The translations under genes and the position numbers were made by a program. A DNA stretch of 64,000 bases from Eurosta solidaginis. Lineage: Eukaryota; Arthropoda; Insecta; Diptera; Tephritidae. This document shows positions 7,035 through 61,280 of this stretch, piece by piece (positions within the stretch are counted from its first letter, which is position 1; every line of letters begins with the position of its first letter). Below the pieces are notes generated by a model. The model made no database searches. It saw nothing but the letters and a program-made list of their open reading frames with translations, and had not been told where the DNA came from. The stretch covers positions 383,485,601-383,549,600 of the forward strand of contig NC_090319.1 in assembly GCF_040869045.1 (NCBI RefSeq). The letters are read 5' to 3'.

Positions 7035-7072
7035 TGTTGAATAAATTCCGAAGACTTCGAATAAACTTGGAC

Positions 7073-7921
7073 ATGCCAAAGTTGAGTGAATTGACGATCC
7101 AGCAACTGAAGGAGGAGTTGGAAGTCCGTGGAGTGGCAACTTTTGGCGATAAATCCCAGCTACAAAAACGACTAAGTGTAGCTATGGTATTTGAAGGAAT
7201 CTACTATGCTGAGGAGTATGACTTTCATTATGATAGCGACAAAACAACAACAAAAATGGAAGAAAAAAACGAAACACCGGAGACAGTGACGAAAACAGTA
7301 TCTGTACAAACATCGACAATGGCATCTCAGCTGGAGTCACAGGAGGCACGGATTTCCGAAATGGCGTCGCAAATGTCATCTCAATTGGAAGAACAGAAGA
7401 CATATATGTCATCTCAATTGGAAGCGCAAGAGGCACGTATATCTGGAATGTCGACAAACATTTCGGAACAGGTATCATCCCAGCTCTTTGCGAAACTGGA
7501 CGAGCAGGATGCAAAAATTTTACAACTCGAGGACAAAATTGATGCCGAGATAGAAGCGTTGAAACCTCTTATGCAACAGTTACAACTAAATCGCTCAGCT
7601 GGTCCAGCAAGCAATCCGAAGATAAAAACTCCATCTTTTGACGGCTCTGTTCCTTTCGAGGTATTCAAGCTTCAATTTGAGAAGACCGCAGCAGTGAACA
7701 ACTGGAGTGCGGAAGATAAAGTTGCTGCACTATTCGTGGCATTGAAAGGATCTGCTGCTGAAATCCTACAAACTATTCCCGAGGGAGAGCGGAACAACTA
7801 CGAAACATTGATGAGTGCTCTAGAGAGGCGATACGGAAGCGAACACAGGAAGCAGATACACCAAATAGAGTTGCAAAACCGCTACCAAAAAGCTAATGAG
7901 ACTTTGCAGGAGTTTGCGTGA
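7073..7921 (+). pseudogene. Gag, N-terminal part (SAP-like motif, coiled coil, capsid-like domain), ended by an in-frame TGA
   Basis: The ATG at 7073 starts MPKLSELTIQQLKEELEVRG, a helix-extended-helix with the pattern of a SAP nucleic-acid-binding motif, covering about residues 1-37. Residues about 80-175 form a heptad-like coiled coil built from repeats of SQLE.QEARIS. From about residue 190 the pattern FEVFKLQFEKTAAVNNWSAE matches the capsid-like gag domain of Ty3/gypsy elements, which assembles the particle. A TGA at 7919-7921 interrupts this domain; the same frame continues without change to 9331. The stop sits in the middle of a conserved helix, not at a gag-pol junction, so a nonsense mutation is more likely than programmed readthrough. 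An upstream in-frame TTG at 7037 is a less likely start. Confidence 0.8.
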
Positions 7922-14992: not shown

Positions 14993-16537
14993 CTAGTATG
15001 ATGCAGCATGCTGTATCATAGGCATACCGAAAGTGGCATAGTACGGCGACATGTTGATGGCTGAATGTGCAACGCTGCGGAGGGCAAATGCGGCATCTGT
15101 GACATACTTGTCCCAGTTTTTCTGATTATCCTTTATGAAGGATCGGATGATTTGTAGAACTGATCGATTTACCCTTTCCGCAGCGTTACCCTGAGGCGAG
15201 TAAAATGCCGTCTTTATATGTTGTGTGCCGTACTTTTCTAAGAAGCTGTTGAACCTTTCAGCTACGAATTGTTTTCCATTATCAGAATGGATATATTCGG
15301 GCAAGCCGAATATATGGAAAACATCCCTTTCCAAAAACTTTATAACCGCCGCTGAAGTTGCCTTTCTCATCGGTTCTAAGAATACAAACTTAGTAAAATG
15401 ATCTAAACACACAAAGACGTACACATTACCATTACTACTACGAGGGTAAGGGCCCATAAAGTCAATAAACAAACGTTGGAAAGGTCGTTCGGTAAGCTTT
15501 TGCTTTCCCATTAGTGGTTGTTTGAATACATTTTGTGTCTTGTTTATTTTGCAGGTTTCACAATCATTGACATGTGCGCACACATCAGATACCATGCCTG
15601 GCCAATAATACTTTTGACGCAGTCGGGATAGGGTCTTATGTATGCCACCATGGCCAGCGGAAGGTGAGCCGTGTGACAATTCCACTAGCCCCGATCGCAA
15701 CCCCGACGGAACCCACAGCTTCCATGTCTGGTCCGCTAGAAGATCGTCCCCCCTGTCAAATTGCGTCCGTTTGTATACATAACCGTCCGATAGACATAGG
15801 TCGGGGAGCTTTTCTTTGTTTTCAGTCACCGTTTTTCGAAGCTCTTTGTACTCCTCCGACTCAAAGTACGGTGACTCGAGGCATACGTCCATCACACGGT
15901 CATTCGTCAATATTTCGTCCATGTGCATCCGTGAAAGTGTGTCGGGAACCACGTTCTGCGCACCTTTTCTGTGTTCAATATTGAAGCCATAGGCTTGTAG
16001 TTTTAGACTCCATCTTGCCAACCTACCCGACAGATCTTTCTGATTCATCAGCCATTTAAGGCTGGCATGATCAGTTATGATGGTGAATGGGGTTCCCTCC
16101 ACATATGGTCGAAATCTTTTTACGCTTACTACGGCAGCGTAGCACTCCAGTTCGGTGATGCTGTAGTTCTTCTGTGCTTTGTTCAGTTTTGCCGACACGT
16201 AAGCGATTGGTCTTTCGTTCTGGTCATCGTCCAGTTGAAACAAAACCCCTCCCACTCCGTCAGTTGATGCATCACATTGAATATAAAATTTTCTGTTGAA
16301 ATCAGGGTGTGTAAGCACTGGTGCCGAAATCAACTTTTGCTTAAAAATTTCAAAAGATTTCACCGCTTCGTCAGTCATAGTGAATTTCTTAATTTTGTCT
16401 TTCTTGAGGCAGTCGTGCAGCGGAGCTGCAATAGTCGCATAGTCCTGTATGAAACGTCGGTACCAGCCCGACATGCCTAGGAACCGTCGTAGTTGCTTCG
16501 GGGTTTTAGGTGTAGGAAAGTCCCTCACGGCTGCCAC
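14993..16537 (-). pseudogene. Pol: RT connection, RNase H and integrase core of the giant element
   Basis: The N-terminal part has the RT thumb/connection block PKQLRRFLGMSGWYRRFI. RNase H follows with CDASTDGVGGVL and TELECYAAV, then the ITDHASLKWL motif. The integrase zinc-binding domain shows HGSPSAGHGGIHKTLSRLRQ...CETC (HHCC pattern), and the core shows FIDFMGPYPR, HSDNGKQF and a later NAAERVNRS block, so the D, D and E of the catalytic triad are visible. These enzymes would degrade the RNA template and join the cDNA to the genome. Two in-frame stops separate this block from the RT block at 16637-17827, and a TAG at 14990-14992 ends it before its natural C-terminus. Confidence 0.85.
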
Positions 16538-16636
16538 CTTATTGGCGTCTGTCCTAGTGCAACCGTCCCCTACTACGTACCCCAGTTATCGCACTTCTTT
16601 ATAACAAAATTTGCTTTTTTCTACATTGATCGTTAA
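16538..16636 (-). pseudogene. Stop-interrupted RT junction
   Basis: This stretch joins the two long pol blocks in the RT palm-to-thumb region and contains two in-frame stops (a TGA at about 16634-16636 and a TAA near 16586-16588). No indel is needed to align both blocks in one frame, so these are point changes. Confidence 0.7.
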
Positions 16637-17827
16637 TCAAGCTTCCCTAAGACACCGAGCGACCTTTTCCAATAAACACATATGAGACTCAAAATCTATA
16701 GAACAAATTAACAAATCATCAAGATAGACAAAGAAACTTTCACGTAAAGCGGCCGGAATGACCTTGTCCATAAGACGACACATACGTTGTGCTGCATTGC
16801 ACAACCCGAAAGGCATCACAGTGAATTGGTATAGGGGTCGGCCTGGGACAGTGAAGGCTGTCTTCTCACGTGACTTGGGATCGAGGGGAATCTGCCAGAA
16901 AGCATCCTTCAGATCAATTGCGGAGATATATCTAGTGTTTTGCAGGCGGCTCAGGATTCCATCAATGTGGGGTAAGGGATACGCATCTTTGATTGTCCTT
17001 TCCTTCACTTTTCGTGCGTCTAAACAAAGCCGATTTTTGGTGCCCTTGATCACTACCGAAACTGGTGAGTTCCAGCTGCTGTTGGACTCCGCTATTACTC
17101 CCATTCTCAGCATTCGGTCCAGCTCTGCGTATATTAGCTTTTGGATGGCGGGTGAAATGGGATAGTGACGTTGCTTAACTGGCAGGTTCTCGTCGACAAC
17201 TTCGATAACATGCTCTTCCTTGTCCGTTCGGCCTAACCCTAATACCGCGAAGGACGGGAATTGGGCTTTCACACGCTCCAACGTGTTACTCTCTTCGGTC
17301 GTTAAGACATGCTGAACGGCGTCGAAAGACAGATCACCCCCAGCGGGAACGAGCTCAGCCACACTAGCAACATTGTCACAAACATTCACACACTTACTCA
17401 CAACATTCATACCAAAGGCCTGCCAAAAATCTACTCCTAAATAAACTTCTTGTTGTAGATCAGGTACAATTAAAAATTCTAACCCTTTTGAGGAACCATC
17501 CCACAAGACAGGTAACCTTATTACCCCTACCACGGCGGTGTCTGCCCCATTTGCCGTCCGGATATTTTGAACCCTGATTGGCACAATCAGGGCCTCTCTA
17601 CCGCGCAGAAGTGCCGCTGAGCCTTTCCCTAAACAGCAGGCACTCGCCCCTGAGTCCAGGAGTGCCAGGACCTCGTGGCCTCCTATCTCGGTTTTCGCAA
17701 AAAACCTGTTATCCCCTTTTACTGTAACTACGGTGGCAACAATCTTACTTCTTAACCTTTTAAAATATTTTCTTTTCTCTCGCATTTTCCTAATTTTTTC
17801 AAAATTCCTACTATTCTTCTTCTCCAT
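16637..17827 (-). pseudogene. Pol: aspartic protease and reverse transcriptase of the giant element
   Basis: The first 40 residues are basic. The protease active site LLDSGASACCLG lies at about residues 56-67 and the VYLGVDFW motif at about 128-135. RT motifs follow: YPISPAIQKLIYAELDRML (fingers), SWNSPVSVVIKG, LCLDARKVKERTIKDAYPLP, ISAIDLKDAFWQIPLD (catalytic Asp in the palm), the PFGLCNAAQRM block and FVYLDDLLI (catalytic YLDD). It is terminated early by a TGA, and the RT continues in the same frame downstream. The enzyme would copy the element RNA into cDNA within the gag particle. Start choice: the ATG follows a pyrimidine-rich stretch after gag, but pol may instead be expressed as a fusion with gag. 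Confidence 0.85.
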
Positions 17828-35284: not shown

Positions 35285-35425
35285 AGAGTAAGGACTTTTC
35301 CTACATCTAAGATAAGCTGGAATCAATGAAGTTAGGAAGAACAATGAGTGATTAAAGTGTAACAATTCTTTATAAATGTTACTCGTTAAACATTTTAGTT
35401 TAAATTTAAAACTTTTAAGCTATTG
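35285..35425 (+). repeat. Fragment of the repeat family at 25777
   Basis: GACTTTTCCTACATCTAAGA through TTAAATTTAAAACTTTTAAG matches 25785-25910. It stops before the ATCGATAA part. Confidence 0.5.
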
Positions 35426-35637
35426 CATAGATTTTATCGCGGGATTGGCGACTAAATCAAAAAAAACCGTAACGGATATTTGTCAAAAAAGATCCGAAAG
35501 GGCTCGAAAAGGTTCGTAAAGGTTGGGTGTTAGCAACAGGCCAAATACATAAAATTGGATCTCTATCATAATCAGCGGTGGGCAGGTTATCAAATTGAGA
35601 ATGTGTTAGTAAACACGAACGCGTAGCGAGCACGAAA

Positions 35638-35789
35638 GCAAAATCAATTATTTATTTAGTTTGATTTCAATGCTTGAACGGTGAACACGTGTCACATGCA
35701 CTCTTTGGTACTCTGTTTTAAGCGCGCGTGCGACACTTTCTCACCATACGACCATCGAAATCAAACTAAAGGAGCTGTCGTTGATTTTC
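35638..35789. repeat. MITE-like inverted repeat
   Basis: TTTAGTTTGATTTCAATG (35655-35672) and CATCGAAATCAAACTAAA (35753-35770) are inverted with one mismatch, with further pairing of AAAATCAA and TTGATTTT outside. No clear duplication. Confidence 0.5.
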
Positions 35790-35823
35790 ACGAAGTAGCC
35801 ATTGTGCTATCCAGTGTTGTCAC

Positions 35824-36800: not shown

Positions 36801-36833
36801 ACACCATATTTCAGTTTTTCTTTTGAAAACGAG

Positions 36834-37838
36834 TTAAAGTGAATGTTAAAGTTAAAGTGAAAGTTAAAGTTAAAAAAAAAGTTAAAGTCAAAGTGAATGT
36901 TAAAGTTAAAGTGAAAGTTAAAGTTAAAGTTAAAGTTAAAGTTAAAGTCAAAGTTAAAGGTAAAGTTAAAGTTAAAGTTAGGGTTAAAGTTAAAGTAAAA
37001 GTCAAATTTAAAGTTAGAGTTAAAGTTAAAGTTAAAGTTAACGTCAAAGTTAACGTTAAAGTTAAATTTAAGGTTAAAGTTAAAGTTAAAGGTAAAGTTA
37101 AAGTTAAAGTTAAAGTTAAAGTCAAATTTAAAGTTAAAGTTAAAGTTAAAGTCAAAGTTAAAGTTAAATTTAAGGTTAAAGTTAAAGTTAAAGGTAAAGT
37201 TAAAGTTAAAGTTAAAGTCAAATTTAAAGTTAAAGTTAAAGTTAAAGTTAAAGTTAAAGTTAAAGGCAAAGTTAAAGTTAAATTTAAGGTTAAAGTTAAA
37301 GTTAAAGGTAAAGTTAAAGTTAAAGTTAAAGTTAAAGTTAAATTTAAGGTTAAAGTTAAAGTTAAATGTAAAGTTAAAGTTAAAGTTAAAGTTAAAGGTA
37401 AAGTTAAAGTTAAAGTTATAGTTGAAGTTAAAGTTAAAGCTAAAGTTAAAGTTAAAGTTAAAGTTAAAGTTAAACTTGAAGTTAAAGTTAAAGTTAAAGT
37501 TAAAGTTAAATTTAACGTTAAAGTTAAAGGTAAAGTTAAAGTTAAAGTTAAAGTTATAGTTAAAGTTAAAGTTAAAGTTAAAATTAAAGTTAAAGCTAAA
37601 GTTAAAGTTAAAGTTAAAGTTAAAGTTAAAGTTATATTTAAAGTTAAAGTTAAAGTTATAGTTAAAGTTAAAGTTAAAGTTAAAGTTAAAGTTAAAGTTA
37701 AAGTTAAAGTTAAAGTTAAAGTTAAGGTTAAATTTAAAGTCAAATTTAAAGTTAAAGTTAAAGTTAAGTTAAAGTTAAAGTTAAATTTAAGGTTAAAGTT
37801 AAAGTTAAAGGTAAAGTTAAAGTTAAAGTTAAAGTTAA

Positions 37839-37840
<2 letters not shown>
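36834..37840 (+). repeat. (TTAAAG)n hexanucleotide array, segment L
   Basis: About 1.0 kb of tandem GTTAAA/TTAAAG hexamers with recurrent variants (GTCAAA, GGTAAA, TTTAAG, GTTATA, GTGAAT). The variant order lets segments be matched: 37560-37840 corresponds to the end of segment M (44570-44691) joined to segment R (46858-47060) without the intervening element. Long frames of repeated dipeptides here are an artefact of a period divisible by three. Confidence 0.95.
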
Positions 37841-37871
<31 letters not shown>

Positions 37872-37872
<1 letters not shown>

Positions 37873-38085
37873 TGTTTCGTGGAAGGAGGAAATGCTTTAT
37901 GCACTGACCGGGATATTTAAGCCTCACTGCGAGACTCTCCGAGTGTAGGACTCCCTTCTGCCATGAAGGCCTACCCACTAAAACCTAACCTCCCACGGCC
38001 CGCGCAAATCCCCGTACCTGGGACCGCGTTTAGCATTACTTCGGGTACGGGTGCGCGCTACGTGAGCTCTATGGCTACTCTCACG
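37872..38085 (-). other. 3' UTR of R1-clade copy A
   Basis: About 215 bp between the ORF2 stop and the poly(A) tail, nearly identical to 44708-44919 in copy B. 3' UTRs of R1-type elements are recognised by the RT during target-primed reverse transcription. Confidence 0.75.
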
Positions 38086-41000
38086 CTAATGGGCTAGGCA
38101 TCCGTCTTCTCGTTTAATGGTAAGTATATGCCTCACATATGTGCTGACCGTATCCCATCTGTCTCTTCGACAGGTCATGTTATTAATGACACTGCCCGGG
38201 GATAGGTCGCCAAGTACCTCTTCTACCCTCCTTCGCTGATGGGAGAAGTGCCTGCATTCGAAGAAGGTGTGGCGTACATCGTCTATTTCCCCACAGTACA
38301 GACAGCTCGGGCTATCAACCTTACCCATTCTGTGTAGGTATTTGCGGAAGTAACCATGTCCCGTTAGAAACTGGGTCAGGTAAAAGTCTACCTCTCCGTG
38401 CGGTCGCTTCAACCATGGATCAAGTTCAGGGATTAGTTCCCTAGTCCACTTTCCTACGATGCTGTTGCTCCACTGATCTTGCCAACGTCGGATCGATTCT
38501 TCTCGCGCCTGCATGGCAACAGCAGCTCTACTTGCTTGCGATCCGTTGTCATATATTGTTTTTCTTTCCTCAACGAGAAGATATATCGGTATGGTTCCCG
38601 CAACGACCAGGACAGCTTCAGCTGAGACCGTGCGGTAAGCCGAAGATATTCGCAGCGCCCCTCTGCGTTGGACCGAGGTGAGGGCGACTCGGTTCTTCCG
38701 GTATTTCATTGCGTCCGCCCAGATTTCTGCACCATATAAGAGTATAGAATCCGAGGCTGATGCAAGCAACTTCCTTGTGCATGGTTTTGGGCCACCTGTG
38801 TTTGCCATTAATCTATCCAACTGCGCTATTATGCGCGCAGCTCTTTCGCAGGTCCCTCGTATGTGATCCGAGAAGTTGAGTTTGCTGTCTAACCTCACTC
38901 CCAGATATTTCGCTGAAGCGAGTGTTTCTATTGGCTGGTCCCCAACCATCATGTTCCTGGTAGTGGGAATACGTTTCTTTGTGAGGATGACGATCTCCGT
39001 TTTGGCTGTTGCTAACTGGAGACCGTGCTCAGCCATCCACCTATTTACATTACGCATGACCTGGTTTAATTTTAGCTGTGCCAGCTCGCAGCTTGGTGCT
39101 GTTATCACAGCTGCCACGTCGTCTGCAAATGCAACGAGGAAGGTGCTTTCTGGCATGTCTAACCGAAGAAGACTGTCGTAAGTTATATTCCAGAGATCGG
39201 GACCTAGTACCGAACCCTGGGCTGCTCCACCTGTTATTTTTACCTTTTTTTGACCGTGAGTACTTTCATATATTATATACCTCTCTCTTAGGTAGTCCCT
39301 TAAAATTTCTAACAAATATTGCGGTACTTTGAAAGTGCTTTCTAGTGCCTCAAGCATGTCCTCCCACCTAGCTGAGTTAAAAGCGTTTTTGACGTCCAGC
39401 GTGACCAGCAACACTATAGGTCTTGCTCTGTGGCACGCTGTCTCGGCTTTCTTGACTGCGTCTATAACTTCTGCTATGGCATCCATTGTAGAGTGCCCTC
39501 TCCGAAAACCATGCTGTCTGGGCGACAGTCCTCCGGCGTCCTGTAACGCTCTGGTGAGGCGTTGCTTCAGGAGACTCTCCATCAATTTCCCTGCTGTGTC
39601 CAACATACATAGGGGACGGTAGGATGATGGAGAGTTGGGATCTCCTTTCCCTTTTGGAATGAGAACCAGTCGTGCTGTCTTCCATATGGTGGGGAAAATT
39701 CTTTCTTCGAGACATTTGTTGTACATGTGCAACATAAGTTCTGGGCAGTCGTTTGCAGCTAGTCTAATTGCCTCCGCGGGTATTCCGTCGGGCCCAGATG
39801 CTTTCCTAGGTTTCATAGTTCGCACGGCAGTTTTAAGCTCTTCTTCTTGGAATGGTTCCACGTTGCGATCTTCATGGGTAACGTACCCGCCCTCCCTAGG
39901 CAGTTGGGTGGGAAACAGGCCATCCACAATGTTCCTTATTTGGTTCTCGTCCATCAGCTGGTTTGGCGGACGGAACTTCTTCATTACTATCTTATATCCC
40001 TGCCCCCATGGGTCTCGATCCACTTCCTCGCAAAGCGCTTTCCAGCACTTAAGCTTGCTTTGCTTAATGGCAGCACTAAGAGCTTTCTTCGCTCCTTTGT
40101 ACGCTTCCGACTTTTCTAGAGCCTCAGGCCTGCCGCGCGCGCGAGTTGCTATCCTTCGCATCCTGTGGCATATTTTCCGCAGCTCCGCGATTTCGCTATT
40201 CCACCAGTATACCTGCTTTTTACCCCTCCACACTCCCCTCCGTGGCATAGAGAGGTTGCAAGCGTGGCGAAGACAGCTCATTGTCTTTTCAACCGTCTCT
40301 TCCGTCGGACTGGAGTTGTTGATTATCCGTCGGGCATCCCCCAGTACTGATGCGGAGAACGTGGCAGAGTCGACCTTGGATGCGTCCCATGCTTTTGTTC
40401 TGCGTGGCCCGTTCGGAATCTGCCTCTGACCGGGATCGTTTAGGTGGAAAGTGATGTAGTTGTGATCGCTGCCAGTCAGATCCTCTATGACTCTCCATCC
40501 AGCAGCGGTCAGCAGCAGGCTTTCTGACACTAGTGTTACATCGGGGATCGAGTATCCAAAGCCTGGCCGTCGGTATGTAGGGGTCGTACCAGTGTTAAGC
40601 ACGTTCAAACCGAGCCTGGCTGCCATCTCAAGGACTAACCTTCCACGGGTGTTAGTCTGCGGCATTCCCCATTCGACGGCTCTTGCGTTAAAGTCTCCCG
40701 CCACAACCAGGTTACTAGTTAAGTCCCTCAGGTCGTCTTCAATAAGTTCAAGCTTCTCCCTGAACGTTTGAATGGGATCATTCGGGGACAAGTAGCAGCT
40801 TACTATTGTGGTATTATTCGTAGTTAGGCGGACGTAGCCTTGTCCGGCAACACGGTTCACAATATTGGCGTTTGCATCTGTCATCCAGATTGCGGCGGTG
40901 CCGGTGTTGTCTATATGCCAATCATTTCGGGCTCTATAGGGTTCGCTGATGATAACGCTGTTAGCTTTATGGTCTAAGACCAACTGTTGTAGTAGCTCAT

Positions 41001-41103
41001 CAGCGAGTCTGCTCCGGTTTAGGTTGCCTTGGATAAAACTAATCACTATTGAATTGAGACTTTGGCCTTTGCAACAGCGAGTGCCGCTCTGAAAATGCTG
41101 CAT
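38086..41103 (-). CDS. ORF2: endonuclease and reverse transcriptase of the R1-clade element
   Basis: 1005 residues, no internal stop. Residues about 20-225 form an apurinic-type endonuclease with IQGNLNRSRLADELL, IISEPYR, VVAGDFNARAVEWG and the C-terminal SDHNYITF motif; this enzyme nicks the target. RT follows at about 430-720 with MKPRKASGPDGIPAEAIRLA, LIPKGKGDPNSPSSYRPL, QHGFRRGHSTMDA, TLDVKNAFNSARW and the catalytic FADD at about 658-661. The C-terminus has CLYCGEIDDVRHTFFEC, a CCHC motif usual for R1-type ORF2. No RNase H domain is present. The start at 41103 overlaps the ORF1 end by 58 bp in another frame; the true start may lie slightly later. The same protein region in copy B differs at few positions. 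Confidence 0.93.
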   Translation of the reverse strand: MQHFQSGTRCCKGQSLNSIVISFIQGNLNRSRLADELLQQLVLDHKANSVIISEPYRARNDWHIDNTGTAAIWMTDANANIVNRVAGQGYVRLTTNNTTIVSCYLSPNDPIQTFREKLELIEDDLRDLTSNLVVAGDFNARAVEWGMPQTNTRGRLVLEMAARLGLNVLNTGTTPTYRRPGFGYSIPDVTLVSESLLLTAAGWRVIEDLTGSDHNYITFHLNDPGQRQIPNGPRRTKAWDASKVDSATFSASVLGDARRIINNSSPTEETVEKTMSCLRHACNLSMPRRGVWRGKKQVYWWNSEIAELRKICHRMRRIATRARGRPEALEKSEAYKGAKKALSAAIKQSKLKCWKALCEEVDRDPWGQGYKIVMKKFRPPNQLMDENQIRNIVDGLFPTQLPREGGYVTHEDRNVEPFQEEELKTAVRTMKPRKASGPDGIPAEAIRLAANDCPELMLHMYNKCLEERIFPTIWKTARLVLIPKGKGDPNSPSSYRPLCMLDTAGKLMESLLKQRLTRALQDAGGLSPRQHGFRRGHSTMDAIAEVIDAVKKAETACHRARPIVLLVTLDVKNAFNSARWEDMLEALESTFKVPQYLLEILRDYLRERYIIYESTHGQKKVKITGGAAQGSVLGPDLWNITYDSLLRLDMPESTFLVAFADDVAAVITAPSCELAQLKLNQVMRNVNRWMAEHGLQLATAKTEIVILTKKRIPTTRNMMVGDQPIETLASAKYLGVRLDSKLNFSDHIRGTCERAARIIAQLDRLMANTGGPKPCTRKLLASASDSILLYGAEIWADAMKYRKNRVALTSVQRRGALRISSAYRTVSAEAVLVVAGTIPIYLLVEERKTIYDNGSQASRAAVAMQAREESIRRWQDQWSNSIVGKWTRELIPELDPWLKRPHGEVDFYLTQFLTGHGYFRKYLHRMGKVDSPSCLYCGEIDDVRHTFFECRHFSHQRRRVEEVLGDLSPGSVINNMTCRRDRWDTVSTYVRHILTIKREDGCLAH

Positions 41104-42503
41104 GCTCCAGATCCAGGGACATGATCGAGCTTCTGTGTATTACACAGGTAACATTTTGGAGCTGCGGTACAGGCCGAAGCTTTGTGGCCGCTTTGCCCAC
41201 ACTTCCAGCAGGCGTTACTCCTGTCTGGACCCTTGCATTCTGCCTTCCGGTGTCCGTAGCCGAGACACCTAAAGCAGCGTTGTACTTCTGCTCGCTGTCT
41301 GATTCGGCACTGTATCCATCCGATCGGAATTTTACCTTTTTTGAGTAGGGCGTTGCCAATATTCTCGTCCACTTCGACGACCGCCATTTTCTGTTCTCTT
41401 TGGTTTGCTGCGAACACAGAGACACGGAGAGGTCTAGTGATTTCTTCTTTTCCGACCTCCCTCCTTATTGCGTCTTGGATTTCTGTTTCAGTTGTGAGAC
41501 AGTCCATGCCAAGTACTTCCAACTTCATCCGCTTGGAGAGCTGTTGTGCTTCACCGACCTCTCCTACTGCACTACCTATAGCTGCTCTGAAGGCCGTCTG
41601 GTCACTGCAGCGCGCCGTTTCAATCAGTGCGTTACCAGATTTGGTTTTTCGTACTGACCGTACCACCGTACCTGTGTCATTAGGGCGGAGCTGGCCGCGT
41701 ATGGCCCCTAGTACCTGGGCATAGCTTTTGCCTTCCACAGGTTTTACCACAAAAGTTGCTGCTTGTCTCCTCTTTCTCGCCCGTTTTTGAGCTTTAGGAG
41801 CTTGGACGGGGGTTGCCTGCTTGGCTGGCTGGGCCCGCTGTTTCAGCCTCCGGCGCGCTACATTGGACCAAGACTCACCTTGTGAAAGCGTATTTGTTCT
41901 TTCATCTCGTTTCTTTTTGGCTTCCAAGTCCTCCGAGTGGGAATCTGAGCTCGTTCGTGCCCTCTTGCTTTTTCGGCCCGATTCTCTGCTCTCATCTACC
42001 TTTTGGGCCCTTAACGATCCCATGCAGCTTAACGCTTCCTCGAGAAGAGCCATACCGGTTTTTATGTCCTTGGACACGGTCTTCTGCTTGAGAGCGGTTT
42101 CCTGCATCTCGCGCAGCACTGATACCGCGTACTCCAGCAGTTCGTCTTGGCTCTTCCCTTCGAGGCTTGTGTATGAGAGTGAGCCTCTTGGCGGAGTCGC
42201 ACGTTTCTCCTTCCCAACAGCGCGCTGTGCAACGACATTGGGTGAGCTGACCGACGCTTTTTCCCTTGCAGTAGCAGGTGTTGACTGGCTGGGGTTATTG
42301 CGCAGCTGTGCTTTCGCTGCCTTTGTCTTTTCCGCCGATTCGGTGCCTTGTGTGGGCATTACCGACAAGGTCGCTTTAGCGGGGGTTGTTAAAACCGGCG
42401 ATCTCAGCACTTTAGTGCTCTTCTTGAACACCGCTTCATCGCCCCTTTCTTTCTCGCTTTCTCTACTTTTATCTTCCTTTGTTGTTTTTATTTTGTTACT
42501 CAT
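41046..42503 (-). CDS. ORF1: Gag-like RNA-binding protein of the R1-clade element
   Basis: 485 residues. The N-terminal half is charged and low in complexity, with a helical stretch around residues 115-165 (SQDELLEYAVSVLREMQETA). A basic patch (KRARKRRQ) precedes a folded middle part with ETARCSDQTAFRAAIGSAVG, resembling the RRM-like/esterase-free Gag of R1-type ORF1. Near the C-terminus are CFRCLGYGHRKAEC and CWKCGQSGHKASAC, two clear CCHC knuckles, and a third partial one, CYLCNTQKLDHVPGSGAC. The family's ORF1 binds the element RNA and helps to bring it to the target. It ends at 41046 with a TAG, inside the start of ORF2. Length is normal for the clade. Confidence 0.9.
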   Translation of the reverse strand: MSNKIKTTKEDKSRESEKERGDEAVFKKSTKVLRSPVLTTPAKATLSVMPTQGTESAEKTKAAKAQLRNNPSQSTPATAREKASVSSPNVVAQRAVGKEKRATPPRGSLSYTSLEGKSQDELLEYAVSVLREMQETALKQKTVSKDIKTGMALLEEALSCMGSLRAQKVDESRESGRKSKRARTSSDSHSEDLEAKKKRDERTNTLSQGESWSNVARRRLKQRAQPAKQATPVQAPKAQKRARKRRQAATFVVKPVEGKSYAQVLGAIRGQLRPNDTGTVVRSVRKTKSGNALIETARCSDQTAFRAAIGSAVGEVGEAQQLSKRMKLEVLGMDCLTTETEIQDAIRREVGKEEITRPLRVSVFAANQREQKMAVVEVDENIGNALLKKGKIPIGWIQCRIRQRAEVQRCFRCLGYGHRKAECKGPDRSNACWKCGQSGHKASACTAAPKCYLCNTQKLDHVPGSGACSIFRAALAVAKAKVSIQ

Positions 42504-43126
42504 TTGTTCTATTGGGTCTCCGCTTCAAGCCGCTATCTCCGCACGATGTGCAGTCGCCGTCTTCAATTCCCGTGGTTATCTTTGCAGAAGCAGGGAGGCC
42601 ACGCGTGGGTTGACACAGGTCCTTATGGGAGTCTGTGTTCAGAGCCAGAATACAGCGTTAGTCAGGAGTCGTCTCAACTGAGCCTGCACCACCAACTTAA
42701 TGGCGACGTGCTTCGAACGTACTTGAAGACCTGCCAAGGTTTTAACGAGACGGAGACGATGCCGATATTAACCTACCAGCCGTTTCGGCAAGGTGTCACC
42801 CTTGCTTATTAAGGTAGTAGCCTATCGTCATCGCCAGCCCGTAGCAATCAGTTCATAATCATATTTCCAGTTTTGGTCAACAGGATCTTACTGGTCTCGA
42901 TCCTGTGGATGCTTGATGGGGTATTTTAGGGCGGCATCCTATCGCCCTTCCACCGGAACTTTGGGATGTGTTGCCCTTAGAGCAACACATTCCCATTTTT
43001 CCACTGGATTGCTCGTTTTGGTTCGCCCTGAGTACTTAATTCACTCAGTACCTCCCGTCTTGTGGGAAGCGTTCCTCTATCCACCACCTGAGGAGGCGCC
43101 CGGTAGGGGACCGATACCCCCGCGGG
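42504..43126 (-). other. 5' UTR of R1-clade copy A
   Basis: About 620 bp between the array and the ORF1 ATG, starting (minus strand) CCCGCGGGGGTATCGGTCCC. Likely carries the internal promoter, but no motif was assigned. Confidence 0.7.
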
Positions 43127-44691
43127 TAAAGTTAAAGTTAAAGTTAAAGTTAAAGTTAAAGTTAAAGTTAAAATTAAAGTTAAAGTTAAAGTTAAAGTTA
43201 AAATTAAAGTTAAAGTTAAAGTTAAAGTTAAAGTGAATGTTAAAGTTAAAGTTGAAGTGAATGTTAAAGTTAAAATTAAAGTGAATGTTAAAGTTAAAGT
43301 GAAAGTTAAAGTTAAAGTTAAAGTCAAATTTAAAGTTAAAGTTAAAGTTAAAGTCAAAGTTAAAGTTAAATTTAAGGTTAAAGTTAAAGTTAAAGGTAAA
43401 GTTAAAGTTAAAGTTAAAGTCAAATTTAAAGTTAAAGTTAAAGTTAAAGTTAAAGTTAAAGTTAAAGGCAAAGTTAAAGTTAAATTTAAGGTTAAAGTTA
43501 AAGTTAAAGGTAAAGTTAAAGTTAAAGTTAAAGTTAAAGTTAAATTTAAGGTTAAAGTTAAATGTAAAGTTAAAGTTAAAGTTAAAGGTAAAGTTAAAGT
43601 TAAAGTTAAAGTTGAAGTTAAAGTTAAAGTTAAAGTGAATGTTAAAGTTAAAGTTGAAGTTAAAGTTAAAGTTAAAATTAAAGTGAATGTTAAAGTTAAA
43701 GTTAAAGTTAAAGTCAAATTTAAAGTTAAAGTTAAAGTTAAAGTCAAAGTTAAAGCTAAATTTAAGGTTAAAGTTAAAGTTAAATGTAAAGTTAAAGTTA
43801 AAGTTAAAGGTAAAATTAAAGTTAAAGTTAAAGTTAAAGTTAAAGTTAAAGTTAAAGTGAATGTTAAAGTTAAAGTTGAAGTTAAAGTTAAAGTTAAAAT
43901 TAAAGTGAATGTTAAAGTTAAAGTGAAAGTTAAAGTTAAAGTTAAAGTCAAATTTAAAGTTAAAGTTAAAGTTAAAGTCAAAGTTAAAGTTAAATTTAAG
44001 GTTAAAGTTAAAGTTAAAGGTAAAGTTAAAGTTAAAGTTAAAGTCAAATTTAAAGTTAAAGTTAAAGTTAAAGTTAAAGTTAAAGGCAAAGTTAAAGTTA
44101 AATTTAAGGTTAAAGTTAAAGTTAAAGGTAAAGTTAAAGTTAAAGTTAAAGTTAAAGTTAAATTTAAGGTTAAAGTTAAATGTAAAGTTAAAGTTAAAGT
44201 TAAAGGTAAAGTTAAAGTTAAAGTTAAAGTTGAAGTTAAAGTTAAAGTTAAAGTGAATATTAAAGTTAAAGTTGAAGTTAAAGTTAAAGTTAAAATTAAA
44301 GTGAATGTTAAAGTTAAAGTTAAAGTTAAAGTCAAATTTAAAGTTAAAGTTAAAGTTAAAGTCAAAGTTAAAGTTAAATTTAAGGTTAAAGTTAAAGTTA
44401 AAGGTAAAGTAAAAGTTAAAGTTAAAGTTAAAGTTAAAGTTAAAGTTAAATTTAAGGTTAAAGTTAAAGTTAAATGTAAAGTTAAAGTTAAAGTTAAAGG
44501 TAAACTTGAAGTTAAATTTAAAGTTAAAGTTAAGGTTAAATTTAACGTTAAAGTTAAAGGTAAAGTTAAAGTTAAAGTTATAGTTAAAGTTAAAGTTAAA
44601 GTTAAAATTAAAGTTAAAGCTAAAGTTAAAGTTAAAGTTAAAGTTAAAGTTATAGTTAAAGTTAAAGTTAAAGTTATAGTTAAAGTTAAAG
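43127..44691 (+). repeat. (TTAAAG)n array, segment M, with 618-bp higher-order period
   Basis: About 1.57 kb. The variant AAAGGCA occurs at 43464 and 44082, and GTGAAT at 43635 and 44253; both pairs are 618 bp (103 hexamers) apart. The array therefore has higher-order repeats, as satellites homogenised by unequal exchange do. Confidence 0.93.
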
Positions 44692-46857
44692 TTTTTTTTT
44701 TTTTTTTGTTTCGTGGAAGGAGGAAATGCTTTATGCACTGACCGGGATATTTAAGCCTCACTGCGAGACTCTCCGAGTGTAGGACTCCCTTCTGCCATGA
44801 AGGCCTACCCACTAAAACCTAACCTCCCACGGCCCGCGCAAATCCCCGTACCTGGGACCTCGTTTAGCATTACTTCGGGTACGGGTGCGCGCTACGTGAG
44901 CTCTATGGCTACTCTCACGCTAATGGGCTAGGCATCCGTCTTCTCGTTTACTGGTAAGTATATGCCTCACATATGTGCTGACCGTATCCCATCTGTCTCT
45001 TCGACAGGTCATGTTATTAATGACACTGCCCGGGGATAGGTCGCCAAGTACCTCTTCTACCCTCCTTCGCTGATGGGAGAAGTGCCTGCATTCGAAGAAG
45101 GTGTGGCGTACATCGTCTATTTCCCCACAGTACAGACAGCTCGGGCTATCAACCTTACCCATTCTGTGTAGGTATTTGCGGAAGTAACCACGTCCCGTTA
45201 GAAACTGGCTCAGGTAAAAGTCTACCTCTCCGTGCGGTCGCTTCAACCATGGATCAAGTTCAGGGATTAGTTCCCTAGTCCACTTTCCTACGATGCTGTT
45301 GCTCCACTGATCTTGCCAACGTCGGATCGATTCTTCTCGCGCCTGCAAGGCAACAGCAGCTCTACTTGCTTGCGATCCGTTGTCATATATTGTTTTTCTT
45401 TCCTCAACGAGAAGATATATCGGTATGGTTCCCGCAACGACCAGGACAGCTTCAGCTGAGACCGTGCGGTAAGCCGAAGATATTCGCAGCGCCCCTCTGC
45501 GTTGGACCGAGGTGAGGGCGACTCGGTTCTTCCGGTATTTCATTGCGTCCGCCCAGATTTCTGCACCATATAAGAGTATAGAATCCGAGGCTGATGCAAG
45601 CAACTTCCTTGTGCATGGTTTTGGGCCACCTGTGTTTGCCATTAATCTACTCAACTGCGCTATTATGCGCGCAGCTCTTTCGCAGGTCCTTCGTATGTGA
45701 TCCGAGAAGTTGAGTTTGCTGTCTAACCTCACTCCCAGATATTTCGCTGAAGCGAGTGTTTCTATTGGCTGGTCCCCAACCATCATGTTCCTGGTAGTGG
45801 GAATACGTCTCTTTGTGAGGATGACGATCTCCGTTTTGGCTGTTGCTAACTGGAGACCGTGCTCAGCCATCCACCTATTTACATTACGCATGACCTGGTT
45901 TAATTTTAGCTGTGCCAGTTCGCAGCTTGGTGCTGTTATCACAGCTGCCACGTCGTCTGCAAATGCAACGAGGAAGGTGCTTTCTGGCATGTCTAACCGA
46001 AGAAGACTGTCGTAAGTTATATTCCAGAGATCGGGACCTAGTACCGAACCCTGGGCTGCTCCACCTGTTATTTTGACCTTTTTTTGACCGTGAGTACTTT
46101 CATATATTAGATACCTCTCTCTTAGGTAGTCCCTTAAAATTTCTAACAAATATTGCGGTACTTTGAAAGTGCTTTCTAGTGCCTCAAGCATGTCCTCCCA
46201 CCTAGCTGAGTTAAAAGCGTTTTTGACGTCCAGCGTGACCAGCAACGCTATAGGTCTTGCTCTGTGGCACGCTGTCTCGGCTTTCTTGACTGCGTCTATA
46301 ACTTCTGCCATGGCATACATTGTAGAGTGCCCCCTCCGAAAACCATGCTGTCTGGGCGACAGTCCTCCGGCGTCCTGTAACGCTCTGGTGAGGCGTTGCT
46401 TCAGGAGACTCTCCATCAATTTCCCTGCTGTGTCCAACATACATAGGGGACGGTAGGATGATGGAGAGTTGGGATCTCCTTTCCCTTTTGGAATGAGAAC
46501 CAGTCGTGCTGTCTTCCATAAGGTGGGGAAAATTCTTTCTTCGAGACATTTGTTGTACATGTGCAACATAAGTTCTGGGCAGTCGTTTGCAGCTAGTCTA
46601 ATTGCCTCCGCGGGTATTCCTTCGTGCCCAGATGCTTTCCTAGGTTTCATAGTTCGCACGGCAGTTTTAAGCTCTTCTTCTTGGAATGGTTCCACGTTGC
46701 GATCTTCATGGGTAACGTACCCGCCCTCCCTAGGCAGTTGGGTGGGAAACAGGCCATCCACAATGTTCCTTATTTGGTTCTCGTCCATCAGCTGGTTTGG
46801 CGGACGGAACTTCTTCATTACTATCTTATATCCCTGCCCCCATGGGTCTCGATCCAC
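44692..46857 (-). mobile_element. R1-clade non-LTR retrotransposon, 5'-truncated copy B
   Basis: Poly(A) tail of 16 bp (44692-44707), the same 3' UTR as copy A, and the ORF2 C-terminal 645 residues. The 5' break corresponds to position 40018-40027 of copy A, in ORF2 near residue 360, and joins directly to hexamers (GATCCACTT/AAAGTT, with TT shared). 5' truncation is the usual outcome of incomplete target-primed reverse transcription. Sequence identity to copy A is very high. Confidence 0.93.
44920..46857 (-). pseudogene. ORF2 C-terminal part (RT), copy B
   Basis: Open from residue about 360 of the full protein to the normal stop, with all RT motifs (SGHEGIPAEAIRLA with a changed position compared with copy A, TLDVKNAFNSARW, FADDVAAV) and the CCHC end CLYCGEIDDVRHTFFEC. 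The endonuclease is absent. The frame is closed upstream by the TAA contributed by the hexamer array, so no natural start exists. Not functional as an element, but its lack of stops shows that the insertion is young. Confidence 0.9.
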
Positions 46858-47270
46858 TTAAAGTTAAAGTTAAAGTTAAAGTTAAAGTTAAAGTTAAAGT
46901 TAAAGTTAAAGTTAAAGTTAAAGTTAAAGTTAAAGTTAAAGTTAAGGTTAAATTTAAAGTCAAATTTAAAGTTAAAGTTAAAGTTAAGTTAAAGTTAAAG
47001 TTAAATTTAAGGTTAAAGTTAAAGTTAAAGGTAAAGTTAAAGTTAAAGTTAAAGTTAAAGTTAAAGTTAAAGTTAAAGTTAAAGTTAAAGTTAAAATTAA
47101 AGTTAAAGTTAAAGTTAAAATTAAAGTTAAAGTTAAAGTTAAAGTTAAAGTGAATGTTAAAGTTAAAGTTGAAGTTAAAGTTAAAGTTAAAGTTAAAATT
47201 AAAGTGAATGTTAAAGTTAAAGTGAAAGTTAAAGTTGAAAAAAAAGTTAAAGTTAAAGTGAAAGTTAAAT
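46858..47270 (+). repeat. (TTAAAG)n array, segment R
   Basis: About 410 bp. Variant order (GTTAAGGTTAAATTTAAAGTC, a one-base slip GTTAAGTTAAAG, GGTAAAG, then two GTTAAAATT units and GTGAATG) equals that at the end of segment L followed by the start of segment M. R is thus the uninterrupted version of the site occupied by copy A. Confidence 0.92.
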
Positions 47271-47454
47271 ATTAACTTCTCATTTATTCAGTAAAAGTAA
47301 AAAATTTGTTTTCTTATCGGTCACCACGCTTAAAAAGGTTAACTTGAATTAATATCAAAGAAAACAAAAGGTTGCATAAATATTATAATTGCATAAGTTG
47401 ATAATATGCAATAGCTTTACCGCGGCAGTCTCCGGGTGCCACACGTCCTTTTTT

Positions 47455-51353: not shown

Positions 51354-52367
51354 TCACCTCTCCTCTGTCGATGGAATGACTGGGGTGAAGGTTGTATAGG
51401 TAGTAGTTATCGGCATATAATAGTCGATCCTGTCTGGGATAAAGTCGAAACTGGTAAGAGCGTTAGAGTGTCCGAAGCCAGAAAGCCCATAGCCCATATC
51501 ACGAAGCCTAACTAACGACCGGGCCGTGGTCGACTTTCCCGCAATATCTACTGGATATATGTTCAGCATGACGTTCAGTGCCAAGTTAGGTGTTATTCTG
51601 AGAGCGCCACTGACACCGATCAGCGCCGTCCGTTGCGCTGACACTAACGTTTTTGAGGTGCTCGCCGTGGCCCGTGCTTTCCACCAGACCAGCACCCCAT
51701 AGAGCGGAATCTGGTTGACCACCATCTCATGAAGCCAGTGCACTACTCTTGGCGAGAGTCCCCATCTCTCTCTGATAGCCCCCCTGCAGCAATACAAGGC
51801 AACCGCGGTCTTCCTGGCCCTATCTTCCACACTGGGTCTCCAGGACAATTTCTTGTCCAAAACAATCCCCAAATATTTAACCCTATCAGAAAGTACCAAC
51901 GGTACCCCTCCAATCGAAAGTGTTCTGAAATCGGGCATCTTATATCTCCTTGTAAAAAGAACTAATTCCGTTTTTCCTGGGTTGACCGCCAATCCATATG
52001 ATTCAGCCCACCTAGCCACAGTATCCAAGTAGGCCTGCAGAACATCACGCAGGGTGCCCAGAAATTTGTCTCTGACTAGGATAGCGAGGTCCTCTGCATA
52101 GGCAACCAACCGACAGCCATTGGCTTCCATCTCCACAAGAAGCACTTTGACCACCAGAGGACTTCCGATTGCCCCCGGTAAGACATTGTTAAGAGCCACC
52201 TCGATGTCTAGAAAGTCACACAGAGCAAACTTTTTGTGTTCTAGGGATCCCTCTATTTGCTTTATAATCGAATGGAGAGCCATTTCTGTCGATCTACCCT
52301 TGCAGTGCGCATGCTGTGAAGCCGACAGTAACCCCCCGAGGTATCCTTTCCCGTAGGTACAGGTCAA
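51354..52367 (-). pseudogene. RT core and linker of the non-LTR element
   Basis: 337 residues. SASQHAHCKGRSTEMALHSI matches the RT motif usually reading Q.GFR.G.ST. The catalytic box is changed to YAEDLAILV, with Glu in place of the first Asp of YADD. KTELVLFTRRYKMPDFRTLS and VKYLGIVLDKKLSW follow. The GGVLSP block is missing: CDFLDIEVALNNV passes directly to VVKVLLVEMEANG, so about 60 residues between the palm motifs are lost. The enzyme could not function. Confidence 0.8.
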
Positions 52368-53464: not shown

Positions 53465-54244
53465 TTATAACTCATTAATAAAATCTATATGGCAGCTTAA
53501 AAAGTCTTTAACTTTTTGATTTGTTAAATCTGTAAATAAACCCGGAATATCTTCAGAATGAAAATTACCGTATGACACCGCACAAAGTTTCCTGTTCACA
53601 GTTGCCCCTGCTCCGTGAACTTCTACACAAACATTTTTTTGATTATATGAAGCACAAATCGTTGTTTCTGATAGACCTATCTTCCTACTGGAATATTGAT
53701 GCTGGCATTGATCCTTTTGTACTATTTGTATTAGAGCAGCTTGGAGGACGTCTGAATACGAATTTATAGATAAACCTTTCCATCCATAAACTTTCATTAA
53801 ATCCCCCGTTCTTAATTCAGAATTGCAAATTTTTACTGGGTATACTGTCTCCCTTTTTGAAAAAGGTTGCTCCAATTTAACAACAGCTATGTTAATTTTC
53901 TTATATTGTCTTCTTTCACTATAACCATCATCAAAAAATATATCCTGCACTTGGCGTTGCTGCCCGCCTTGTGTGGCTTTCTTTGTTATATTGGCTTCAC
54001 CAGCTAGAACCTCTATATTGCTCTTGTCTGCCCCGTATACGCTATGCGCAGCGGTAACCACCGATTTCCAAGTGACTAGGGATCCAACACACTCATACTT
54101 GGAACCAATAAATATAGCAACGGAATGTGGGCTGTCCGTTATTTCTACATTTACGCCATATAGCATGCGAAATTGCCCGCTCGTATAGGATAGACGGCAG
54201 CCTATAATGACAAAAAAGATCGCCAAATTATTAAGTGAATTCAT
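53465..54244 (-). CDS. Secreted serine protease homologue (S1 family, catalytically inactive)
   Basis: 259 residues, one exon, intact. Residues 1-23 form a signal peptide (hydrophobic NNLAIFFVIIGC). The fold is that of a chymotrypsin-like protease: CVGSLVTWKSVVTAAHSVYG with His67 in the catalytic position, INIAVVKLEQPF where Asn118 replaces the catalytic Asp, and VCVEVHGAGATVNRKLCAVS where GDSGG is lost and His210 stands at the Ser position. The Cys that normally follows the catalytic His is Ser68. Length is normal for a single S1 domain without prodomain. Such homologues serve as cofactors or binders, in flies often in seminal fluid, gut or haemolymph; the tissue here is unknown. A TATA box lies 67 bp upstream, and AATAAA-type signals are about 180 bp downstream. 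It is the only convincing host gene of the window and sits between two repeat blocks. Confidence 0.82.
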   Translation of the reverse strand: MNSLNNLAIFFVIIGCRLSYTSGQFRMLYGVNVEITDSPHSVAIFIGSKYECVGSLVTWKSVVTAAHSVYGADKSNIEVLAGEANITKKATQGGQQRQVQDIFFDDGYSERRQYKKINIAVVKLEQPFSKRETVYPVKICNSELRTGDLMKVYGWKGLSINSYSDVLQAALIQIVQKDQCQHQYSSRKIGLSETTICASYNQKNVCVEVHGAGATVNRKLCAVSYGNFHSEDIPGLFTDLTNQKVKDFLSCHIDFINEL

Positions 54245-58375: not shown

Positions 58376-59705
58376 AACCGAGGGAAACCCTGGAATGTGT
58401 TTGTATGACATGTGTATCAAATGAAAGGCATTAAAGAGTATTTTATGAGGGAGTGGGCCATAGTTCTATAGGTGGACGCCATTTAGGGATATAGCCATAA
58501 AGGTGGACCAGGGGTGACCCTAGAATTTGTTTGTACAATATGGGTATAAAAAGAAAGGTGTTAATGAGTATTTTAAAAGGGAGTGATGCTTAGTTCCACA
58601 GGTGGACGCCGTTTCGAGATATCGCCATAAAGGTGGACCAGGTGTGACCCTAGAATTTGTTTGTACAATATGGGTATCAAAAGAAAGGTATTAATGAGTA
58701 TTTTAAAAGGGAGTAATCCTTAGTTCCATTGGTGGATGCCATTTCGAGATATCGCCACAAAGGTGGACCAGGGGTGACCCTAGAATTTGTCTGTACAATA
58801 TGGGCATCAAACGAATGGTGTTAATGAGTATTTTAAAAGCGAGTGGGCCTTAGTTCTATAGGTGGACGCCGTTTCGAAATATCGCCTTAAAGGTGGACCA
58901 GGGGTGACTCTAGAATGTGTTTGTACGATACGGGTATCAAATTAAAGGTATTAATGAGGGTTTTAAAAGGGAGTGGTGGTTGTTGTATAGGTGGTCGCCT
59001 TTTCGAGATATCGCCATATAGGTGGACCAGGGGTGACTCTAGAATGCGTTTGTACGATATGGGTATCAAATGAAAGGCGTTAATGAGTATTTTAAAAGCG
59101 TGTAATCCTTAGTTCCATAGGTGGACGCCGTTTCGAGATATCGCCATAAAGGTGGACCAGGGGTGACCCTAGAATTTGTTTGTACAATATGGGTATCAAA
59201 AGAAAGGTGTTAATGAGTATTTTAAAAGGGAGTAATCCTTAGTACCATAGGTGGACGCCGTTTCGAGATATCGCCATAAACGTGGAGCAGGGGTGACCCT
59301 AGAATTTGTTTGTACAATATGGGTATCAAAAGAAAGGTGTTAATGAATATTTTAAAAGGGAGTAATCCTTAGTTCCATAGGTGGACGCCGTTTCGAGATA
59401 CCGCCATAAAGGTGGACCAGGGGTGACTCTAGAATTCGTTTGTGCAATATGGGTATCAAACGAAAGGTGTTAATGAGTATTTTAAAAGGGAGAGGGGCCT
59501 TAGTTCTATAGGTGAACGCCCTTTCGAGATATCGCCATAAAGGTGGACCAGTGGTGACTCTAGAATGTGTTTGTACGATATGGGTATCAAATTAAAGGTA
59601 TTAATGAGAGTTTTAAAAGGGAGTGGTGGTAGTTGTATATGTGAAGGCGTTTTCCAGATATCGACCAAAATGTGGACCAGGGTGACCCAGAACATCATCT
59701 GTTGG
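58376..59705 (+). repeat. 130-bp tandem repeat, about ten units
   Basis: The landmark GGTGGACCAG or a close variant occurs at about 58502, 58632, 58762, 58892, 59021, 59151, 59281, 59411, 59542 and 59672, a steady 129-131 bp. Each unit also holds GTTTCGAGATATCGCCATAA and TTGTACAATATGGGTATCAA. Minus-strand frames over the units repeat the same peptide and are not genes. Confidence 0.88.
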
Positions 59706-60839: not shown

Positions 60840-61280
60840 AGATGATGTTCTGGGTCACCCTGGTCCACATTTTGTTCGATATCTCGAAAACGCCTTCACA
60901 TATACAACTACCACCACTCCCATTTAAAATACTCATTAACATCTTTCATTTGATACCCATATCGTACAAACACATTCTAGAGTCACCCCTGGTCCACCTT
61001 TATGGCCATATCTCGAAAAGGCGTCCACCTATAGAGCTAAGCCCACGCCTTTTAAAATTCTCATTAATATCTTTCATTTGATACAAATATCGTACAAACA
61101 AATTCTAGAATCAGCTCTGGTACAACTTTATGGCGATATCCCTAAGTGGCGTCCACCTATAGAACTATGGCCCACTCCCTCTTAAAATACACTTTAATAA
61201 ATTCCATTGGATACACATGTCATACAAACACATTCCAGGATAACCCTAGGTTTTTCTACATGGTGATTTTCCCTTATTTT
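60840..61280 (-). repeat. Inverted 130-bp units
   Basis: Three to four units of the array at 58376-59705 in the opposite direction (CTGGTCCACCTTTATGGC and variants at about 60861, 60990 and 61119). Confidence 0.75.

Follow-up and report, generated by a model that had tools for sequence, protein, structure and literature searches.

A probable R1-type retrotransposon inserting preferentially into (TTAAAG)n arrays, often within a DINE-1/HINE-like transposon, in Eurosta solidaginis

The stretch of Eurosta solidaginis DNA analysed here (64,000 nucleotides of contig NC_090319.1, positions 383,485,601 to 383,549,600; hereafter the window) carries, at 36834..47270, two copies of one non-LTR (long terminal repeat) retrotransposon, both on the minus strand and both within an array of the hexanucleotide TTAAAG. 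The locus raises the question of whether this retroelement selects the repeat as its target and, if so, what recognises the repeat and what carries it through the genome. We consider it highly likely that the retroelement is an R1-type, (TTAAAG)n-specific retrotransposon whose insertion is directed by its endonuclease and whose target often lies inside a mobile host.

The window locus and its retroelement

The two copies are 99.1% identical over 2151 bp, and their 3' junctions are alike, with GTTAAAG followed by poly(T). On the 5' side, the array resumes with TAAAGTTAAAG at copy 1, while the junction of copy 2 reads ..GATCCACTT/AAAG.., with up to two T ambiguous. A preliminary description, made from the letters of the window alone, had reported two copies in the same direction with AAAG/poly(T) junctions after a complete GTTAAAG unit, which are present as it described, on the minus strand. 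It had also taken them for two independent insertions, and the locus bears this out. The array of the window is itself segmentally duplicated, so that a paralogous uninterrupted site exists for each copy; because the two copies occupy different paralogous sites, they represent two independent insertions. The flanks of copy 1 together comprise 11 units, the first of them partial, compared with nine in the uninterrupted paralogous site, and this gain of two units is consistent with a two-unit target-site duplication.

Both open reading frames (ORFs) of copy 1 are uninterrupted. ORF2 encodes an APE-type endonuclease (Pfam Exo_endo_phos_2 at 99-217, E=3.2e-21), a reverse transcriptase with an FADD motif (RVT_1 at 483-737, E=4.6e-30) and a C-terminal CCHC knuckle (CLYC..H..C at 934); no RNase H family was matched in ORF2 at E<=0.001 in Pfam. 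Together with the CCHC knuckles of ORF1, every part of the anatomy listed in the preliminary description is thus present. We compared the endonuclease with the chains of the PDB, a comparison that covers solved structures only. The best match was TRAS1 (1wdu, E=1.7e-21) and the next R1Bm (2ei9, E=0.0018); three R1 fusion chains score like R1Bm, and they are followed by an unrelated phosphoribosyltransferase at 0.23. No other non-LTR endonuclease was found among PDB chains up to E=10. Folded alone, the endonuclease gave a mean pLDDT of 44, and this model was set aside.

Junctions across the genome and a proposed mechanism

To place the two window copies in context, the 1.908 Gb genome was searched for the exact 29-base pattern of the 3' end, which occurs 567 times, compared with 0 for the reversed control. 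The sample of 3' flanks consists of the first 100 occurrences listed, all on contig C1. Seven of them were identical to another flank in their last 40 bases and were removed, which left 93 distinct flanks (one removed identical pair, L034/L087, may be just two perfect arrays). A flank was called an array when at least 0.75 of its last 36 bp matched (TTAAAG)n, a rule that none of 2000 random 36-mers from window positions 100-30000 passed. By this rule, a (TTAAAG)n array adjoins the 3' end in 76 of the 93 distinct flanks. The phase seen in the window, GTTAAAG/poly(T), recurs in 68 of these 76, a count that rests on the 100-flank C1 sample (p = 2.8e-13 against 1/2, which is the chance value because T runs mask two of the six phases). 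Under the same rule, an array in the opposite orientation was seen in none of the 100 flanks. In a first set of 83 flanks, the G preceding the poly(T) was retained in 59 of the 61 that were in phase. Finally, 18 of the 20 best matches, which come from several contigs and include copy 1 of the window, lie at arrays as judged by eye. The proposal of the preliminary description that most copies would abut (TTAAAG)n in one phase is therefore upheld in the C1 sample, where the flanks are neither mostly unrelated DNA nor random in phase.

The 5' ends lead into the same repeat. Counting copy 1, the genome has 122 occurrences of the 5' terminal 25-mer, and from 100 of these we picked 40 5' flanks by hand (a non-random choice) over contigs C1-C5. 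In 34 of the 40 the retroelement runs straight into an array, which begins with TAAAGT (19 flanks), AAAGTT (11), AGTTAA (3) or TTAAAG (1). Adding seven further copies from C1 to 39 of the 40 gave 46 paired full-length copies, and the 3' boundary was recognisable in 37 of them. An exact duplication of at least 6 bp was found in 29 of the 37; it measures 13 bp in nine, 12 bp in six and 6 to 37 bp in the remainder. Sixteen duplications are not an artefact of the repeat, because they include a variant unit or non-array sequence, and 13 of these 16 are 10-15 bp long. When the pairing of flanks was shuffled 300 times, variant-bearing duplications of 10-15 bp numbered 0.17 on average and three at most. 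Four copies with a non-array 5' flank carry duplications of 14-15 bp.

In the mechanism that we propose, an APE-type endonuclease would recognise (TTAAAG)n and first nick the strand that reads TTAAAG, at GTT^AAAG. Reverse transcription would then be primed by the freed 3' end, ..AAAGTT, whose terminal TT would pair with the poly(A) tail. The second strand would be cut 12-13 bp upstream, which is two repeat units back, and a typical insertion would duplicate about two hexamers. The preference for arrays, the phase, the single orientation and the length of the duplication can be read directly from the sequence; that the endonuclease is the recogniser and carries the specificity, and that the nicks follow this order, is what we infer. 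Recognition of the repeat unit by the endonuclease had already been suggested in the preliminary description, and the suggestion is strengthened by the two-unit duplications and by TRAS1 and R1Bm as the best solved relatives.

Sequence-specific insertion with a target-site duplication is typical, although not universal, for the R1 clade, and the retroelement displays this trait through its one-phase insertion and its duplications of most often 12-13 bp. Its anatomy and the similarity of its endonuclease, on which the placing rests, support an R1-type element and a probable position in the R1 clade. Alignment of the first 30 copies on C1 with copy 1, over 52 to about 1530 bp, gave a median identity of 99.0%, with a range of 88.7-100. 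Near-identical copies and the two open ORFs of copy 1 point to a retroelement that was probably active recently.

The host transposon and rival explanations

We further looked at what lies beyond the arrays. At many loci, the left array edges share a common sequence, ..TTTTTAAGCTATTGCATAGATTTTATCGCGGGCTTGGCGACTAAAT.. to ..GGATCTCTATCATAAAG, and the right array edges share another, TATTAACTTCTCATTTATTCA.. to ..TATGCAATAGCTTTACCGCGG..GTGCCACACGTCC, followed by a T run. In the window, the corresponding host transposon begins near 35412 and ends near 47454; at 35585-35811 and farther on, it contains additional internal sequence. A 41-mer of the common form of the host left end has 643 exact copies in the genome (the window copy is slightly different), the left array edge occurs 297 times and a 21-mer of the right edge has 897 exact occurrences; reversed controls of the host-edge patterns gave 0. 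The 47-nt right end of the host folds at -8.0 kcal/mol, and the same stem is legible in L034, L045 and L214. According to PMC4067079, DINE-1/HINE transposons have subterminal inverted repeats of 13 bp, a stem-loop near the 3' end, flanks rich in T and an internal microsatellite; HINEs of oysters with tandem arrays are described in PMC7492417. The host has the same four traits, its microsatellite being the internal array. T-rich sequence lies on both sides of L214 and at several left ends, and the host may, like DINE-1/HINE transposons, insert at TT without duplication.

Retroelement copies and host edges occur together far more often than by chance placement. For 32 of the 63 C1 copies in the range shared by the retroelement and host-edge lists, an exact host edge lies no more than 15 kb away, on the correct strand and side, compared with 0.29 (at most five) after circular shift. 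By eye, the outermost non-element left edge is of the host type at 17 of 22 distinct loci, a count in which the window was scored by its left arm and from which the second, internal array edges of L008, L043 and L057 were left out. The host is also found without the retroelement. A complete host with an internal array and no insertion is seen in L214, while L213 and L215 have host edges and an uninserted array, with 51 and 54 TTAAAG between the edges, their outer ends being absent from the stretch examined. Of the 37 left edges listed for C1 up to 195.9 Mb, 13 have a right-edge partner no more than 20 kb away, and an exact retroelement 3' end is lacking from 11 of these 13 pairs (9 of the 11 distinct right edges).

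Many target arrays, and perhaps most of them, are the microsatellite at the centre of a DINE-1/HINE-like transposon of the Helentron type. The preliminary description had rightly named a (TTAAAG)n array as the target, but it overlooked that the array is often internal to such a transposon. The host ends and the uninserted hosts are observed as such; that the host is a non-autonomous rolling-circle transposon, whose movement would disperse the target arrays, we infer. Going one step beyond this, we tentatively raise the possibility, on the doubtful side as it stands, of a two-tier system, in which a rolling-circle transposon offers the central microsatellite on which the retrotransposon has come to specialise, the host scatters landing sites, insertions add units and the hexamer specificity is derived from the host. 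If this were true, each insertion, by adding about two units, would help to sustain its own target, and the hexamer specificity would be owed to a mobile supplier and not to a telomere or to ribosomal DNA (rDNA).

The host itself is not uniform. An extra segment before the array (..GGTTGGCTTGTTAGCAGGTGCTAAGCTCACGCCCACCCCGGATCATAAAG) marks a longer host variant in L007, L017, L043, L046, L057, L060 and the window at 35585-35811, and it defines at least two host subtypes.

Several observations weigh against the picture of an array-specific retrotransposon with a mobile host. On the 3' side, 17 of the 93 distinct flanks fail the array rule: judged by eye, six belong to a host arm or an array edge, (TTTAC)n or (TTATC)n runs account for three, and the other eight are unrelated DNA. 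Among the 76 array flanks, eight depart from the common phase. On the 5' side, six of the 40 flanks are non-array, and in one of these, L137, the array is confined to the 3' side. Nine of the 46 paired copies have no recognisable 3' boundary and eight of the 37 others no exact duplication, although two of the eight (L156 and L160) are by eye just one base off; within a perfect array, moreover, the longest match merely bounds the length of the duplication. The flanks of copy 2 comprise 16 units compared with 10 at its paralogous site, a gain of six; its duplication is hidden because of array slippage, and the window copies alone leave the duplication length unfixed. The exact 3'-end search pattern is biased toward young copies. 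As for the host, about half of the 63 C1 copies lack an exact host edge nearby, two of the 63 have a right edge whose side or strand is wrong, five of the 22 left array edges are not of the host type and the array of L214 is degenerate, with 13 perfect units between the edges. Because of the edge-less copies and the five non-host left edges, host membership is not proven for every target array. Similarly, the array specificity is strong but not absolute, because some 3' and 5' flanks are non-array or out of phase. The off-target insertions in the pentamer arrays (L058, L077 and L078) suggest some tolerance of other T/A-rich short tandem repeats.

The retroelement might alternatively have a weak GTT^AAA preference, as many APE-type endonucleases do, with arrays accumulating copies through the number of their sites or through tolerance (selection or chromatin). 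Off-target insertions do exist, and by extrapolation from the one window the arrays would hold up to about 1.1 million GTTAAAG, and the rest of the genome about 0.2 million. However, the arrays are enriched about 150- to 1050-fold over a uniform draw, the range being set by the estimate of array content, and the phase is strongly skewed. A rough extrapolation from 6 heptamers in 53.6 kb also leaves at least 16% of the sites outside arrays, yet 0 of the 17 non-array flanks end in an isolated GTTAAAG, the closest being L033 with GGTTAAAAG. We regard this explanation as unlikely. A single GTTAAAG heptamer seems insufficient as a target, because the heptamer exists outside arrays and no non-array flank ends in an isolated one. 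It is more improbable still that the retroelement builds the arrays, with insertions adding units and arrays growing around them. About two units are gained per typical insertion, so an existing array can lengthen in this way, but the retroelement-free hosts L213, L214 and L215 already have arrays, and most of the C1 host edge pairs (11 of 13) lack the exact retroelement 3' end.

The array duplications in the window raise another concern, namely that copies multiplied along with their arrays by segmental duplication or unequal exchange and not by independent targeted insertion, and the seven 3' flanks in 100 that repeat another's last 40 bases point the same way. Against this, the other 93 flanks are distinct, poly(A) lengths and 5' truncation points vary among copies, individual copies are bounded by matched duplications (most often 12-13 bp) and the window copies sit at different paralogous sites, which makes co-duplication a highly improbable account. 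The least credible of these explanations holds that (TTAAAG)n is the telomere repeat of the species and the retroelement a TRAS/SART-like telomere element. It is invited by the hexamer repeat, the R1-type element and the TRAS1-like endonuclease. TTAAAG doublets, however, occur in 0 of the 12 outermost 8-kb ends of contigs C1-C6 (contig ends that may not be telomeres), seven of the 12 run into a different satellite, tandemly repeated with a period of about 165, 333 or 500 bp, and the insertions are interior to C1-C6, many of them inside a dispersed transposon. We rejected the telomere reading on the absence of TTAAAG arrays from these ends and the presence of another satellite at seven of them. 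Tandem Repeats Finder reported no TTAGG array in the outer 8 kb at both ends of C1-C6, and (TTAGG)5 has 111 overlapping matches in the genome, scattered to judge from the 100 listed. The target found here is (TTAAAG)n and not the telomeric (TTAGG)n of TRAS/SART, and membership in that telomere-specific group is excluded because the target differs.

Known systems and further features of the window

An R1-type retrotransposon specific for (TTAAAG)n would have its closest parallels in TRAS1 and SART1, R1-clade elements of Bombyx mori telomeres, which likewise have two ORFs, an APE-type endonuclease and a poly(A) joined in a fixed phase. According to PMC7265360, TRAS1 and SART1 act at TT^AGG of (TTAGG)n, and GTTAG is essential for TRAS1 cleavage. 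Their nick falls between TT and A of a short repeat, and the one proposed here, at GTT^AAAG, would do the same. Unlike the targets of TRAS1 and SART1, the arrays here are interstitial as far as the contig ends show, and a dispersed transposon houses many of them. The duplication (most often 12-13 bp) can be read here thanks to imperfect units; the SART1 paper (PMC7265360) contains neither 'TSD' nor 'target site duplication'.

R1 of arthropod 28S rDNA, the source of the second solved relative of the endonuclease (R1Bm), uses a single rDNA site, unlike the retroelement, whose target is a repeat array. The target-site duplication of R1 is 14 bp, close to the 12-15 bp here. In Xenopus, the non-LTR element Tx1L targets a specific site within another transposon, Tx1D; it differs from the present case in belonging to another non-LTR clade, in having a DNA transposon as host and in its non-hexamer target. 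Waldo is an R1-clade element found in simple repeats. Mino inserts in AC repeats, as stated in PMC3124438, so that simple-repeat targeting by R1-type elements is already known. The retroelement resembles Waldo and Mino in its R1-type insertion in microsatellites and differs in the repeat, TTAAAG. The host, in turn, differs from DINE-1/HINE transposons as described in the available parts of PMC4067079 and PMC7492417 in that its hexamer array serves as a landing site for a retrotransposon.

What appears to be new is the hexamer target, the readable two-unit duplication and a target that is often the central array of another transposon. No paper on a TTAAAG-targeted non-LTR element was found by title among the matches listed, in a search that had preprints and most subscription papers outside its reach; within that range, the impression given in the preliminary description that this hexamer and its pairing with the element are undescribed still stands. 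R1-type elements illustrate how an APE-type endonuclease can be re-aimed to a new sequence. The retroelement offers a young, high-copy natural case, with hundreds of copies in imperfect repeats, from which the recognition rule may be deduced with genome data. It also suggests a mobile safe harbour, in which a retrotransposon would spare genes by residing in the satellite of another transposon. HINEs are known to spread satellite-like arrays; here they would in addition create a dispersed target.

Table 1. Features of the window, with positions counted from its first letter
Feature	Position	Strand	Remarks
Copy 1 of the retroelement	37872..43126	-	Full length, about 5.26 kb
Copy 1, 5' untranslated region	42504..43126	-	About 0.62 kb; 5' end ..CCCCGCGGG in + orientation
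Copy 1, ORF1	41046..42503	-	485 aa, uninterrupted; CCHC knuckles at residues 410 and 432 (Pfam zf-CCHC, E=3.3e-4)
Copy 1, ORF2	38086..41103	-	1005 aa, uninterrupted; 58 bp overlap with ORF1
Copy 1, poly(A) tail	37841..37871	-	Poly(T) on +; first two T may belong to target GTT
Copy 2 of the retroelement	44708 to about 46858	-	5'-truncated inside ORF2
Copy 2, poly(A) tail	44692..44707	-	Poly(T) on +
(TTAAAG)n array, 3' flank of copy 1	36832..37842	+	Tandem Repeats Finder; holds the paralogous uninterrupted site of copy 2 near 37670
(TTAAAG)n array separating copies 1 and 2	43127..44693	+	Tandem Repeats Finder
(TTAAAG)n array, 5' flank of copy 2	46858..47269	+	Tandem Repeats Finder; holds the paralogous uninterrupted site of copy 1 near 47060
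Host transposon, left arm	35412..35570	+	T-rich start, then AAGCTATTGCATA.. to ..GGATCTCTATCATAA
Host, left 13-bp subterminal inverted repeat	35417..35429	+	AAGCTATTGCATA
Host transposon, right arm	47266..47454	+	TATTAACTTCTCATTTATTCA.. to ..GTGCCACACGTCCTTTTTT
Host, right 13-bp subterminal inverted repeat	47405..47417	+	TATGCAATAGCTT, complement of AAGCTATTGCATA
Host, 3' stem-loop	47424..47440	+	GGCA..TGCC
Open frame(s) with protease, RT, RNase H and integrase	14993-17827	-	LTR-retrotransposon remnant
Open frame(s) with SAP/PNMA and aspartyl protease	7037-9331	+	Weaker; LTR-retrotransposon remnant
Open frame, trypsin family	53465-54244	-	259 aa, E=5.6e-26
Further retroelement piece	51354-52367	-	Weaker reverse transcriptase (RT) match, RVT_1 E=2.7e-7
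Tandem repeat of about 130 bp	58387-59692 (10 copies) and 60854-61235		Tandem Repeats Finder

Beyond the retroelement and its host, a few features of the window and the genome deserve mention. RNA families gave no match in the window. A tRNA-like sequence with a GGTTCGAATC box and a TAACAATAAT tail adjoins TTAAAG arrays in L016 (near 680-990), L057 (near 900-1237) and L173, and is possibly a short interspersed element (SINE) that shares the target. Perfect (TTAAAG)4 is strand-biased in the assembly, with 86215 forward and 160990 reverse occurrences, perhaps as a result of one or a few very long arrays. The tandem satellite reached by contig ends, CATATCTCTTGAACCAAGCAAGAT.., with its periods of about 165, 333 or 500 bp, is seen at L021, L022, L023, L024, L027, L029 and the end of L030; one possible interpretation is that the chromosomes end in satellite, as they do in flies that lack telomerase. 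Finally, the repeat of about 130 bp also flanks L035, L043 and L049 and represents a second dispersed tandem-repeat family.

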